NCBI RefSeq assembly: GCF_003762835.1
Contig: NZ_RJWA01000003.1
Span: 372,001-436,000, forward strand
DNA: 64,000 bases
Direction of reading: 5' to 3'
Source: Micromonospora sp. HM5-17
Lineage (GTDB): Bacteria > Actinomycetota > Actinomycetes > Mycobacteriales > Micromonosporaceae
Shown here one piece after another: positions 55,467-60,638 of this stretch. Position 1 is the stretch's first letter. The number at the start of each line of letters is the position of its first letter. The position numbers and the translations under genes are program-made. The notes under the pieces are model-generated. The model did not search any database, was not told where the DNA came from, and saw only the letters and a list, made by a program, of their open reading frames with translations.

Positions 55467-55793
55467 GTGACCTACATCATCGCCGAGCCGTGTGTGGATG
55501 TGCTCGACAAGGCGTGCATTGAGGAGTGCCCGGTCGACTGCATCTACGAGGGCAACCGGATGCTCTACATCCACCCCGACGAGTGCGTCGACTGCGGTGC
55601 CTGTGAGCCGGTCTGCCCGGTAGAAGCGATCTTCTACGAGGACGACGTCCCGGAGCAGTGGAAGGACTACACCACCGCGAACTACGAGTTCTTCGAGGAC
55701 CTCGGTTCGCCCGGCGGCGCCTCCAAGATCGGCAAGATCGACAAGGACAGCCCCTTCGTCGCGGCCCAGCCGCCGCGCGGGGAGGGGCACTGA
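55467..55793 (+). CDS. fdxA: 7Fe ferredoxin FdxA
   Basis: A 108-residue ferredoxin with one [3Fe-4S] and one [4Fe-4S] cluster. Ligands are visible as [14 protein letters not shown] and CIYEG (first site), and [16 protein letters not shown] (second). The acidic C-terminus ([20 protein letters not shown]) is typical. GTG 55467 follows GGAGGAGAAG. Its TGA overlaps the start of dapC (CTGA). Confidence 0.95.
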
Positions 55794-56941
55794 GCGGCAC
55801 TCCGGCCTCCGGGTCGGGCAGCGGTACGCCGGCCGGCGCGGCGGCGAGGCGTGGCGCCGGCCTGCCGGACTTTCCCTGGGACCTGCTCGAACCGGCCAAG
55901 GCCCGCGCGGCGCGGCACCCCGACGGCATCGTCGATCTCTCGGTCGGCACTCCCGTCGATCCGGTCCCGGCGCTGATCCAGGCTGCCCTGGCGGCGGCCT
56001 CGGACGCCCCCGGCTACCCGCTGACCGCCGGCAGCCCGGCGCTCCGTGCCGCGGTGACCGGTTGGGTGGCCCGGGCCTGTGACGCGGACCCGGAGACGGT
56101 CGGAGTGTTGCCGACCATCGGCTCCAAGGAACTCGTTGCCTGGCTGCCGACCCTGCTCGGGGTCGGCCCCGGTGACGTGGTCGTGATTCCCCGGATCTGC
56201 TACCCGACGTACGAGGTCGGGGCCCGGCTCGCCGGGGCGGAGGTCATCCGGGCCGATTCGCTCACCGCGCTCGGCCCGGACCCCCGGGTACGGCTGATCT
56301 GGGTGAACTCGCCGTCCAACCCGACCGGTCGGGTGCTGCCGCCGGCGCACCTGCGCAAGATCGTGGAGTGGGCGCGCGAGCGTGGGGTGGTGGTCGCCAG
56401 CGACGAGTGCTACCTGGCGCTGGGCTGGGAGGAGACGCCGACCTCGATCCTCTCCGCCGAGGTCGCCGGCGGCGACTACCGCAACCTCCTGGCCGTGCAC
56501 TCGCTCTCCAAGCGGTCCAACCTGGCCGGCTACCGGGCCGGCTTCGTCGCCGGGGACCCTTCCCTGGTCCGGGACCTGGTCGCGGTGCGCAAGCACGCCG
56601 GGATGATCCTGCCCGCCCCGGTGCAGGCGGCGATGGTCGCGGCGCTCGGGGACGAGGAGCACGTGGCCGCGCAGCGGGCCCGATACGCCGTTCGCCGCGA
56701 GGTGCTGCGGGACGCGCTGGTCAAGGCCGGATTCGAGATCGAGCATTCGACGGCCGGGCTCTACCTGTGGGCCACCCGGGACGAGGACTGCTGGACCACG
56801 GTGGACTGGTTGGCCGAGCGGGGGATCCTGGTCGCCCCGGGGGACTTCTACGGTCCCGCCGGCAACCGGCACGTCCGGGTCGCACTCACCGCCACCGACG
56901 AGCGGGTGGCCGCCGCCGCCGACCGGCTGGTGGCGGCCTGA
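55790..56941 (+). CDS. dapC: Succinyldiaminopimelate transaminase (PLP-dependent)
   Basis: A 383-residue class I aminotransferase of lysine/diaminopimelate synthesis. PLP-site motifs are SKEL (phosphate), [23 protein letters not shown] (Asp and Tyr), and the Schiff-base lysine in [15 protein letters not shown]. The N-terminus [36 protein letters not shown] matches known actinobacterial DapC. There is no ATG, GTG or TTG in frame before a point deep in the protein; the only start placed by a ribosome site (GGAGGGG) is CTG 55790, inside a CTGA overlap with fdxA. The next in-frame ATG upstream (55658) would add 44 residues antisensical to the family and has no ribosome site. Confidence 0.9.
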
Positions 56942-57982: not shown

Positions 57983-58112
57983 GGCAGCCGAATCGGGCGC
58001 TCTAACCGGGGATCATCATGCCCAGAAACGGATCGGAATGACGGCGGAAATGGCGCCGTCTCCGGCTGGGGGCGGCCCGGCCGGACGGCCGGCTCCGTCC
58101 GGAGCACGGGGC

Positions 58113-58118
58113 TAGGCT
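58113..58118 (+). promoter_or_regulatory. -10 box of a leaderless SIMPL gene
   Basis: TAGGCT, followed by 6 nt and the ATG at 58125. Confidence 0.55.
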
Positions 58119-58124
58119 GACCGG

Positions 58125-58793
58125 ATGACCGATCGTCCGACCGTCGATCCGACGCTCCTCGTCCGGGGTGAGGCGGTCTGGGAGGTGCCACCGGAGCTTG
58201 CCCGGTTCGCCGTGACCGTGTCGGTGCGGGACCGGCACCGCGCGGCGGCGCTGGCCCGGCTCACCGAGCGGACCGACGCCGTCCGCGGGGTGATCGACGG
58301 CTACGGCGCCGCGGTCGAGCGCCGGGAAACCGGCCAGCTGTGGGTACGCCCCGAGCGGAAACGCGGCGGCGATCGGGTCGCCGCGTACGTCGGAAGCGCC
58401 ACCACCACGGTTGCCGTGACCGACTTCGCGGTCCTCGGCGAGCTGATGCTCCGCCTCGCCGACCAGGACCAGACCGCCGTGGCGGGCCCGTGGTGGGAGC
58501 TGCGCCCCGGCAGTCCGGCGCATCGGGAGGCCCGGCGGGCCGCGGTCGCCGACGCGATCACCCGGGCCCGGGAGTACGCCGCCGCGCTCGGCGCGGAGGT
58601 GACCCGCCTGCTGGAACTCTCCGACACCGGTCCGGCGGAGCGGCCGGTGATGTTCGCCCGGGCGGCGTACGCCGGGTCCGGGGACGGTGCGACGCCGGAA
58701 CTCGACCTCGATCCGCAGCTCCAGACCGTACAGGCCACGGTGGAGGCCCGGTTCGCGATCAGTCCGCCCCGGCTGGACGTCGCACCGGCCTGA
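58125..58793 (+). CDS. SIMPL-domain (DUF541) protein
   Basis: A 222-residue cytoplasmic protein of the SIMPL family: VRGEAVWEVPPELARFAVTVSVRDR at the start, VAAYVGSATTTVAVTDFAVLGELM in the middle, and AVADAITRAREYAAALGAEVTRLLELSD near the end. Unlike most relatives it has no signal peptide. Function is unknown. Leaderless start at 58125. Confidence 0.88.
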   Translation: MTDRPTVDPTLLVRGEAVWEVPPELARFAVTVSVRDRHRAAALARLTERTDAVRGVIDGYGAAVERRETGQLWVRPERKRGGDRVAAYVGSATTTVAVTDFAVLGELMLRLADQDQTAVAGPWWELRPGSPAHREARRAAVADAITRAREYAAALGAEVTRLLELSDTGPAERPVMFARAAYAGSGDGATPELDLDPQLQTVQATVEARFAISPPRLDVAPA

Positions 58794-58962
58794 ACCCGAT
58801 CGGGTCGCGTTCTCCCGGCCGGTCACCCGCCGCCCGGCGACGCGCACATGAGCCGGATCAGGGGCCGGCGGCGCGGCGCGCCGTCCCGGTCGGTGGCGGT
58901 GACGGCCGCGGGGCGGCATGGCGAACACGGTCGCCGGGGACCAGTGGCGAGCCCAAATCCGT

Positions 58963-58992
58963 TTGCCGAACCCGTCCGGTTCGGCCTAGCGT
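58963..58992 (+). promoter_or_regulatory. metG promoter with a perfect palindrome between -35 and -10
   Basis: TTGCCG (58963-58968), an 18-nt spacer and TAGCGT (58987-58992). GCCGAACC (58965-58972) and GGTTCGGC (58978-58985) form a perfect 8-bp inverted repeat with a 5-nt centre. It covers the space between the boxes, the classic position for a repressor, or for a MerR-type activator that untwists a long spacer. The 18-nt spacer is slightly long, which suits the second idea. Confidence 0.6.
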
Positions 58993-58998
58993 GCCGGC

Positions 58999-59049
58999 AT
59001 GTTCGCCGCGACCCACGCCATGCGCCGGCCCCTCGGGGGCCGGTACTAG
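58999..59049 (+). CDS. Leaderless 16-codon upstream ORF in the metG leader
   Basis: ATG 58999 lies 6 nt after the TAGCGT box, so the RNA should begin at this ATG. The ORF encodes MFAATHAMRRPLGGRY and ends at TAG 59047-59049. Codons 9-15 are embedded in hairpin H1 (59025-59043), so a ribosome translating the ORF would melt that hairpin. Two of the codons are Met. It resembles a leader peptide of an attenuator. It is too short for homology to prove. Confidence 0.55.
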   Translation: MFAATHAMRRPLGGRY

Positions 59050-59147
59050 TCGCGCGCGTCCACCCGCGTCACACGGGTCCCTTGCCAGCCGAGGGGCCCG
59101 TGTCCGTTTCCGGTCCGGGCCCCTCCGTCCCTTCCCGGAGGAGCGCC
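59025..59147 (+). ncRNA. metG leader with mutually exclusive hairpins and a hidden ribosome site
   Basis: H1: CCGGCCCC (59025-59032) with GGGGCCGG (59036-59043), 8 bp. H2: ACACGGGTCCCTT (59071-59083) with GAGGGGCCCGTGT (59091-59103), 13 pairs (two G-U) with a 7-nt loop. H3: CCTCCG (59122-59127) with CGGAGG (59136-59141), which includes the metG ribosome site GGAGGAG (59137-59143). Alternatives: GGCCCCTCGG (59027-59036) pairs perfectly with CCGAGGGGCC (59089-59098), and GAGGGGCCCG (59091-59100) with CGGGCCCCTC (59116-59125). The last alternative breaks H3. There is no T tract, so control of translation is more likely than termination. I find no T-box UGGN bulge or SAM motif. Confidence 0.65.
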
Positions 59148-60638
59148 ATGACCTACCTGACCACTCCGATCTACTACGTCAACGACGTGCCGCACGTCGG
59201 GCACGCGTACACGACGGTCCTCGCCGACGCGCTGGCCCGCTGGCACCGCCTGGCCGGGCGCCCCGTCCGGCTGATCACCGGCACCGACGAGCACGGCGCC
59301 AAGGTGCAGCGGGCGGCCGCCGAGGTCGGCGTGACGCCGGCCGCGCTCGCCACGACCACCGCCGGGCGGTTCCGGTCCACCTGGGACCGGCTCGGCATCG
59401 GGTACGACGAGTTCATCCGTACCACCTCGGCCACGCACCGGCGCACCGTGACCACCCTGCTGACCCGGCTGTACGAGGCGGGCCACCTCCGGCGGGCCCG
59501 GTACGACGGCCGGTACTGCGTGGCCTGCGAGGCGTACACGACTCGGGCGGTCTGCCCGGTGCACGGCCGGCCGACCGAGCAGATCGGCGAGGAGAACTGG
59601 TTCTTCCGGCTCTCCGCGTTCGCCGGGCCGCTGGCCGAGTGGTTCGACCGGTGCCCGGACGCGGTCCAGCCGGCCGAGCGGCGGAACGAGGCGCTCGGCT
59701 GGCTGCGTCGCGGGCTGGTCGACTTCTCGATCAGCCGGGCCAACCTGACCTGGGGAATCCCGCTGCCCTGGGAGCCGACCCAGGTGACGTACGTCTGGTT
59801 CGACGCGCTCGCCAGCTATCTCACCGCCGCCGGCTGGCCGGAGCCCGACTTCCACCGCTGGTGGCCGCCGCGGCACGTCATCGGCAAGGACATCGTGCGG
59901 TTCCATGCGGTCTACTGGCCGGCGATCCTGCTCGCGGCCGGGTTGCCGCTGCCGGAGCGGGTCACGGTGCACGGATTCCTGCTCCAGCGCGGCAGCAAGA
60001 TCGCAAAGTCGGGGGAGCGGGCGGTGCCGCTGGACGACCTGATCGACCGGTTCGGCCCGGAGGCGTTGCGCTACCACCTGTTGCGGGACAACCCGGTCGG
60101 TCCGGACGGGGAGTTCTCGGTGGCCGCGGTCGAGGCGCGGTACCGGGCCGACCTCGCCAACACCCTCGGCAACCTGCTGTCCCGGGTGACCGCCCTGGTC
60201 GTCTCGCACCACGGCGGGCTCGGTCCGGCACCCCGCCCCGACTCGCCACTCGCACCGGTCGCGGCCGAGTGCGCCGAGACGGGCGTGGCCGGCTGGGAGG
60301 CCGGGCAGCCGGCCGAGGCGCTTACCGCCGCCTGGCGGCTGGTGGCGGCGGCCAACGCGTACCTGGTCTCGGCGCGGCCGTGGCGGACCGCGCCCGGCTC
60401 GGCCGAGGCGGTGGAGGTGCTCGGGGCCGCGCTGGAGGCGCTGCGGATCGTCGCCGTCCTGGCCGCGCCGGCGATTCCGCGGACCGCCGCCCGGATCTGG
60501 CGGCAGCTCGGCCTCGACGGGTACGCGCCCCGGGTCCCCGCCGACCTGGCCTGGGGCGGCTATCCGGGCGGTCGTCCGGTGGAGCGTGCCACGCCGCTGT
60601 TTCCCCGGCTGACCCCGCCGGCCCAGCCGGTCCGGTAG
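59148..60638 (+). CDS. metG: Methionyl-tRNA synthetase, divergent form
   Basis: A 496-residue class I synthetase. HIGH is HVGH (16-19) in YYVNDVPHVGHAYTTVLADALARW, followed by TGTDEHGAKVQ. A CxxC...CxxH knuckle (C123, C126, C135, H138) lies in the connective domain. VTYVWFDALASYLTAAG and HVIGKDIVRFHAVYWPAILLA are typical MetRS. The KMSKS loop is KIAKS (283-287), lacking the usual GN after it. There is no C-terminal tRNA-binding domain. It may be the sole MetRS or a second, inducible copy; the unusual leader favours special control. ATG 59148 has GGAGGAG. Confidence 0.9.
   Translation: MTYLTTPIYYVNDVPHVGHAYTTVLADALARWHRLAGRPVRLITGTDEHGAKVQRAAAEVGVTPAALATTTAGRFRSTWDRLGIGYDEFIRTTSATHRRTVTTLLTRLYEAGHLRRARYDGRYCVACEAYTTRAVCPVHGRPTEQIGEENWFFRLSAFAGPLAEWFDRCPDAVQPAERRNEALGWLRRGLVDFSISRANLTWGIPLPWEPTQVTYVWFDALASYLTAAGWPEPDFHRWWPPRHVIGKDIVRFHAVYWPAILLAAGLPLPERVTVHGFLLQRGSKIAKSGERAVPLDDLIDRFGPEALRYHLLRDNPVGPDGEFSVAAVEARYRADLANTLGNLLSRVTALVVSHHGGLGPAPRPDSPLAPVAAECAETGVAGWEAGQPAEALTAAWRLVAAANAYLVSARPWRTAPGSAEAVEVLGAALEALRIVAVLAAPAIPRTAARIWRQLGLDGYAPRVPADLAWGGYPGGRPVERATPLFPRLTPPAQPVR

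Follow-up and report, generated by a model that had tools for sequence, protein, structure and literature searches.

The window analysed here, i.e. the whole 64,000-nucleotide stretch of Micromonospora sp. HM5-17 DNA to which all positions refer, carries on its forward strand (59148-60638) the gene metG. Sequence and structure-chain searches assign its product of 496 aa to type-1-like methionyl-tRNA synthetases (MetRS), the nearest solved-structure chains being those of the Thermus enzyme. A further MetRS of 602 aa, type-2-like and 32-37% identical to the window MetRS, is encoded on the same contig about 200 kb off; its nearest chains are archaeal 1rqg, human cytosolic 5gl7 and those of E. coli. 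The window metG is an auxiliary (second) MetRS gene, a circumstance overlooked in the initial annotation of this locus. In the accessible part of PMC9071491, human cytosolic MetRS is classified as type 2 and many Gram-positive enzymes as type 1. Upstream of the 602-aa gene no leaderless upstream open reading frame (uORF) with internal Met was found in the window genome and four congeners, one of the congeners having there a uORF devoid of internal Met. The gene just upstream of the metG leader (58125-58793) presumably encodes a SIMPL-domain protein, and the product of a more distant upstream gene (55658-56941) is presumably an aminotransferase; the end of apparently the same aminotransferase gene shortly precedes the metG leader in one orthologous genome (G008), suggesting a shared locus.

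The initial annotation proposed a switch-like element in front of metG, and the sequence features on which it relied are confirmed in the leader at 58987-59147. The -10 box TAGCGT (58987-58992, forward strand) is indeed placed 6 nt before the ATG at 58999, which opens a uORF of 16 codons (58999-59049, forward strand) encoding the leader peptide MFAATHAMRRPLGGRY*, with codons 9-15 inside hairpin H1, as originally described. The start codon appears to coincide with the transcript start, and this leaderless character is supported by the spacing between -10 box and start codon in 96 script-found leaders of related genes (6 nt in 61 and 7 nt in 35, the script demanding a [TC]AnnnT box within 4-9 nt of the start codon). 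Codon 8 (59020-59022, forward strand), a Met codon, is the putative sensing codon, judging from its position directly before H1 and from Met enrichment in the compared leaders. An 8-bp palindrome noticed earlier within the promoter does exist at 58965-58985. Inspection by eye revealed none in orthologous promoters, so that it is probably incidental, and its candidacy as an operator was dropped.

Analysis of pairing and folding delineates six segments on the forward strand. Segments 1 (59025-59032, within the uORF) and 2 (59036-59043) are the 5′ and 3′ arms of H1, segments 3 (59071-59084) and 4 (59090-59103) form the corresponding arms of H2, and segment 6 (59136-59144) is the metG ribosome site CGGAGGAGC, hidden in hairpin H3 by pairing with segment 5 (59116-59125). 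Segment 2 has segment 3 as an alternative partner, segment 4 may pair with 3, 5 or 1, and segment 5 either with 4 over 10 bp or, via 59119-59127, with the ribosome site, the assignment of segments 4 and 5 being based also on comparison with relatives. The central proposal of the initial annotation—one segment having three mutually exclusive partners—was verified at the level of complementarity, which is 10/10 between 59089-59098 and 59027-59036 in the H1 arm, 10/10 between 59091-59100 and 59116-59125 (4:5), and 92% between 59071-59082 and 59092-59103 in H2. The H2 arms do pair, with 14 stacked pairs including G-U rather than the 13 counted originally. The complementarity of 59119-59127 to 59136-59144 over the ribosome site is 89%; the pairing of 59091-59100 with 59116-59125 is supported as a possible exclusive alternative to 5:6, able to free the metG ribosome site as had been suggested. 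Calculated energies in the window are -26.0 (H2), -29.1 (4:5) and -13.7 (5:6) kcal/mol. For the RNA of 58999-59160 the calculated folding energy is -85 kcal/mol, compared with -68.7 ± 4.4 for dinucleotide shuffles, none of 200 being as good (z -3.73).

For comparison, MetRS searches encompassed 7 genus, 300 family and 394 class genomes together with plasmid records, and 83 of the 300 family genomes gave a match at E ≤ 1e-60. Among 118 upstream regions, 101 contain a leaderless uORF with Met before H1, a proportion that is not a class frequency, since 85 regions are from genus and family and the 33 class ones comprise the 30 best of 239 matching genomes plus three named records. The leaders were counted as 96 found by script (97 less L170, a chance uORF in a uORF-less subfamily) and five added by a relaxed look (L037, L167, L174, L180, L211); for L135 an inner ATG was taken as the start. 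Of the 101, 81 have tandem Met, and Met-Met within a leaderless uORF was detected by strict script at -170 to -60 in 64 of 118 real regions versus 0 of 5,900 dinucleotide-shuffled ones. Relatives exemplify the peptides MIATSAQVMMPR, MQPRRERMMRPFPGLLAVR and MSTARVTAEAASPRMMLMSMPSGLFRAS, Embleya sp. NBC_00896 has MITRSFQMMPRRRGC, and the plasmid of Streptomyces sp. NBC_01558 has MITPSRQHRMMPRTRGC*, a uORF absent among the genes listed for this plasmid in the PLSDB table, which is incomplete. In four close orthologues (G002, G003, G005 and G008; 70-84% identity to the window MetRS) the layout is reproduced—TAGnnT or TATCGT, 6-7 nt, ATG, uORF, H2, the 4:5 alternative and a hidden GGAGG—and the peptide ending is kept as M(R/A)RPxxGxx*. 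Thus H2 and the hidden ribosome site persist in close species, their absence from which the initial annotation had named as one of the findings that would speak against its proposal.

In a FastTree phylogeny of 141 MetRS, leader-bearing genes occupy two places: the window clade (n=5), a long branch grouped with nine other MetRS, among which are those of Acidimicrobiia as well as L221 and L222, at support 0.99, and a large clade of 96 genes with leader and one without, sister to 15 lacking it. Such leaders therefore arose twice or moved between lineages; the peptides of both have in common a Met-R/P core and not the whole sequence. Neither L221 nor L222 has a leaderless uORF with internal Met, and among 21 named MetRS relatives outside the leader clades none has a Met-Met leaderless uORF, one of them (L116) possessing a distant leaderless uORF with a single Met. 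Search of 397 order genomes returned, besides the window, two relatives (52-55% identity), both without a Met-containing leaderless uORF. As many as 17 of the 118 regions have no uORF, and 15 of these belong to one sister subfamily of about 508-523 aa (L008-L010, L012, L047, L143, L147, L150-L152, L161, L163, L169, L170, L185), which must be controlled otherwise.

The pairings were evaluated by exchanging arms between 98 leaders in 5,000 permutations (L166 and L192, having no compact hairpin, were left out). Own partners proved better than in all 5,000 permutations for 1:2 (z -13.7), 3:4 (z -24.0), 5:6 (z -6.1) and 4:5 (z -4.2), with the reservation that relatedness of sequences overstates independence in these and all other comparative statistics reported here. 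H2 is the best-supported element (own -20.5 versus swapped -13.4 kcal/mol). Double-sided changes are found at two H2 pairs in the window clade, so that compensatory changes, the lack of which was regarded initially as damaging to the model, are present. RNAalifold on MAFFT alignments misaligned G008 and gave little, and per-sequence hairpins were used instead. In the window and four orthologues the 4:5 pairing was matched by only 3, 5, 2, 3 and 4 of 1000 shuffles; the 3:4/4:5 energies in the five window-clade leaders (-26.0/-29.1, -28.6/-28.4, -27.8/-27.1, -28.7/-22.6 and -20.6/-17.7 kcal/mol) provide segment 4 with two strong partners in each. H1 behaves differently: the hairpin after Met averages -9.3 versus -8.3 kcal/mol in shuffles over 100 leaders (all except L146, where the uORF is 290 nt upstream), exceeds at least 19 of 20 shuffles in only 18 and is weaker than -4 in 16, mostly of the genus g86 group. 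It starts -3 to +6 nt from the Met codon in 100 of 100, a nearness obtained partly by construction as the hairpin was sought only at -3 to +8 nt.

Pairing 2:3, i.e. of the H1 3′ arm with the H2 5′ arm, is needed for a working attenuator and was missing from the initial annotation. In the arm swap it displays no covariation over the 98 leaders, own partners being slightly worse than swapped ones (z +2.0), and its arms are nearly always GGGG/CCCC. Folding of nascent RNA ending at segment 3 in the same 98 leaders gave for this segment a mean pairing probability of 0.70 with the ribosome at Met, 0.45 without ribosome and 0.27 with the ribosome at the stop codon; the first value exceeds both others in 81 leaders, and the gains drop when segment 3 is scrambled (0.26 to 0.14; 0.43 to 0.29). 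When a ribosome is placed at Met8 in the window, the RNA between its edge and 59086 folds with 2:3 at -21.8 kcal/mol; a ribosome at the stop codon, which starts three bases past segment 2, covers this segment by construction, and the remaining RNA folds at -6.4 kcal/mol.

Sequence and computation thus provide a uORF, a Met codon directly before H1, the possible pairings 1:2, 3:4 and 5:6 and the exclusive ones 2:3 and 4:5, and most of these elements are kept in relatives. We consider it highly probable that together they constitute a ribosome-mediated, trp-like attenuator, which senses charged elongator Met-tRNA and controls the auxiliary type-1-like MetRS. At sufficient Met-tRNA the ribosome would read to the stop codon, masking segments 1 and 2, upon which 3 would pair with 4 and 5 with 6, leaving metG off owing to the hidden ribosome site and perhaps also to early termination at H2. 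At a shortage of Met-tRNA the ribosome that has already started would stall with Met8 in the A site and cover segment 1 only; segment 2 would then capture 3 in the course of RNA synthesis, 4 would capture 5, and exposed segment 6 would allow the spare MetRS to be made. Without any ribosome 1:2, 3:4 and 5:6 would all form, again giving the off state. The interpretation offered originally is partly supported by this scheme: its chain from uORF translation through H2 formation and H3 closure to silent metG is retained, supplemented by the 2:3 pairing that it lacked, while its assumption that failure of the ribosome to load changes the outcome is abandoned, the leader without ribosome being off in the scheme preferred here. 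From the three signals suggested (charged Met-tRNA, initiator tRNA or antibiotic) the first one stands and, given that two separate MetRS lineages have Met as the retained residue in front of H1, is narrowed to elongator Met-tRNA. Some observations count against attenuation by Met-tRNA: leaders of the window clade have a single internal Met codon, and initiation itself also needs Met-tRNA. When equilibrium folds were computed for a ribosome placed in turn on every codon of the uORF, the ribosome site stayed closed, with the probability of the open state ≤0.007 among the positions listed (for G003 a part of them). In the window, G002 and G005 this small fraction is largest with the ribosome on Met or adjacent to it, but in G008 it peaks near the stop codon, not at Met. 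As equilibrium folding never opens the ribosome site, the switch, if real, must be kinetic.

The nearest competitor is a variant of this explanation rather than its opposite, and the odds of the two overlap: the same Met-sensing leader might operate through transcription termination at H2 alone, with the ribosome-site hairpin and 4:5 being secondary. The prominence of H2 in the arm-swap test favors termination, as do a run of TTT or TTTT that coincides with the end of H2 or closely follows it in four of five window-clade leaders and T-rich tails in some other relatives, such as GGGGCCTC-TTTT in L035. Yet in the window clade H2 is a strong GC-rich hairpin with 0-4 T at its end and without a strong U tract, no terminator passes the scan of 58700-59300, G008 has no T run after H2, both 4:5 and 5:6 surpass their swapped versions, and 4:5 surpasses shuffles in all five window-clade leaders; control by termination alone is, in our opinion, rather unlikely. 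Much less credible, and in fact improbable, is a ribosome stall brought about by an antibiotic or by the MRRP motif of the nascent peptide, which would turn the leader into a drug sensor instead of a Met-tRNA sensor. In its favor, four of five window-clade leaders retain MRRP, and among 1,750 inner residues Arg is the most frequent one (17%). Over 97 distinct peptides, however, the Met run is followed by R in 38, P in 33, T in 10, A in 5, G in 4, S in 3, I in 2, V in 1 and F in 1, so that only Met is common to all; H1 and codon composition account for much of the R/P/G content, and the gene controlled encodes precisely MetRS.

We give hardly any credence to a ligand-binding riboswitch or T-box. 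A structured GC-rich 5′ region would suit it, and a sub-threshold match to c-di-GMP-II-GCG occurs at 58886-58969 (20 bits with gathering 47.9, E 2.5), but this weak match is upstream of the inferred start and by eye has no counterpart in orthologues, and neither 58000-60000 nor seven relatives contain a match reaching the gathering score of any Rfam family. The T-box and SAM riboswitch models were among those giving no match at threshold there, in agreement with the initial failure to see such patterns, and both candidates were rejected. The c-di-GMP-II-GCG match contains the exact run CCAGTGGCGAGCCC. Equally negligible appears chance pairing in a GC-rich region devoid of function, although G/C-rich arms readily form pairs, the energy of H1 does not surpass that of shuffles and 2:3 is without covariation: the comparisons of the whole fold, of Met-Met and of 4:5 with shuffles, the swap tests supporting four of the five pairings, and recurrence in two MetRS lineages all argue otherwise.

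Leaderless leader-peptide attenuators before synthetase genes are a kind already reported in Streptomyces for other amino acids. As far as the accessible parts of these papers show, in S. lividans TK24 mostly leaderless leader peptides precede leuS, trpS, alaS and thrS (PMC8079986), attenuators of trpS2 and leuS were described in Streptomyces, and methionine operons showed no conserved upstream RNA structure (PMC1262725). These leaders resemble the window in their short, mostly leaderless ORF with codons of the synthetase's own amino acid, in competing hairpins and, for some, in the lack of a U tract, and differ from it in that here an auxiliary MetRS is concerned and the switch is coupled to the ribosome site through two additional segments, 5 and 6. 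The accessible portions of both papers mention no Met leader before metG ('metG' has 0 occurrences in each), and no Met leader before MetRS was found in the published literature covered by our search, most subscription journals being outside its coverage. Thus the switch, initially considered undescribed-looking, is of known kind (PMC8079986; PMC1262725, in their accessible parts), and it is its Met/MetRS version for which no published case was found. The metL leader before metNIQ in S. lividans, as presented in the available part of PMC8079986, is likewise leaderless and Met-containing, but it has another peptide, gene and layout and serves a Met importer, not a synthetase. The chain of alternate pairings is shared with another group of regulators. 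In erm-type translation attenuators a drug-stalled ribosome frees the downstream ribosome site; the stall is thus caused there by drug, while here Met codons are the putative cause. Reportedly, Vecchione and Sello showed in 2010 that an auxiliary TrpRS is attenuated by a Trp leader, and this second, inducible synthetase, whose attenuator is said to read its own amino acid, is close to our case in logic. It belongs to Streptomyces coelicolor and is induced under indolmycin, according to the accessible text citing it (Kitabatake 2002, cited in PMC9437257). The difference is in the amino acid and enzyme (Trp/TrpRS), and the window case is not linked to any known natural inhibitor of MetRS.

A shortage of loaded Met-tRNA, then, probably turns the spare MetRS on, and similar leaders precede such MetRS genes in many actinobacteria. 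This would add methionine to the amino acids read by actinobacterial synthetase leaders, with the peculiarity that the codon sensed is also the start codon. In 85 of 99 leader genomes a second MetRS was detected: all 69 of 69 family leader genomes and 7 of 30 class ones possess the 602-aa type, and 9 further class genomes (f22) give a second match to the type-1-like query. At the thresholds used no second MetRS was detected in 14 of the 99 (13 of genus g86 and G478), where the leader may thus control the only MetRS. In this context we tentatively put forward a joint reading, accepting that the odds are somewhat against its being right in full: at least twice actinomycetes would have placed Met-codon attenuators before separate type-1-like MetRS genes, mostly second copies, making them an inducible back-up; the back-up would come into play upon failure of the resident MetRS, for instance under a natural MetRS inhibitor yet to be identified or a Met analogue; and the six-segment chain would carry the stall signal to the ribosome site, with the leader telling elongator from initiator Met-tRNA since its translation has to be initiated by one of them and its internal Met is decoded by the other. 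We know of no well-established natural product inhibiting MetRS, and the attenuator, by predicting when the spare enzyme is made, may serve as a reporter for such inhibitors.

The leader also represents a short DNA signature marking these MetRS genes. Other genes preceded by such a leader were sought among the 300 family genomes with the pattern ATGATGCGCCCCN{3,6}GGGG, to which the leader of the window itself does not conform; 28 matches were obtained in 27 genomes, against 3 in the backward control. By coordinates, 25 of the 28 precede MetRS found in the family search and one (G119) a MetRS relic, with matches in G108 and G077:C41 outside these 26. Longer leaders, e.g. MMLMxMPSG, are characteristic of L193 and L195-L206 (family f20, genus g86), mostly without strong H1; their layout differs, and the H2 5′ arm GCCCC could pair with GGGGC beside the ribosome site. 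In G005 the MetRS gene appears as two overlapping pieces (L011/L007, G005:C1:8220825-8222293, the second piece, L007, being unused in the comparisons): the frame looks interrupted, by a real change or a sequencing error, and the leader looks intact. In G119 (L227, G119:C1:8052885) the Met-Met leader MQSCGPSMMRPLAGFSGVR* stands before an apparent MetRS relic with large deletions, indicating that leaders can outlive the gene.
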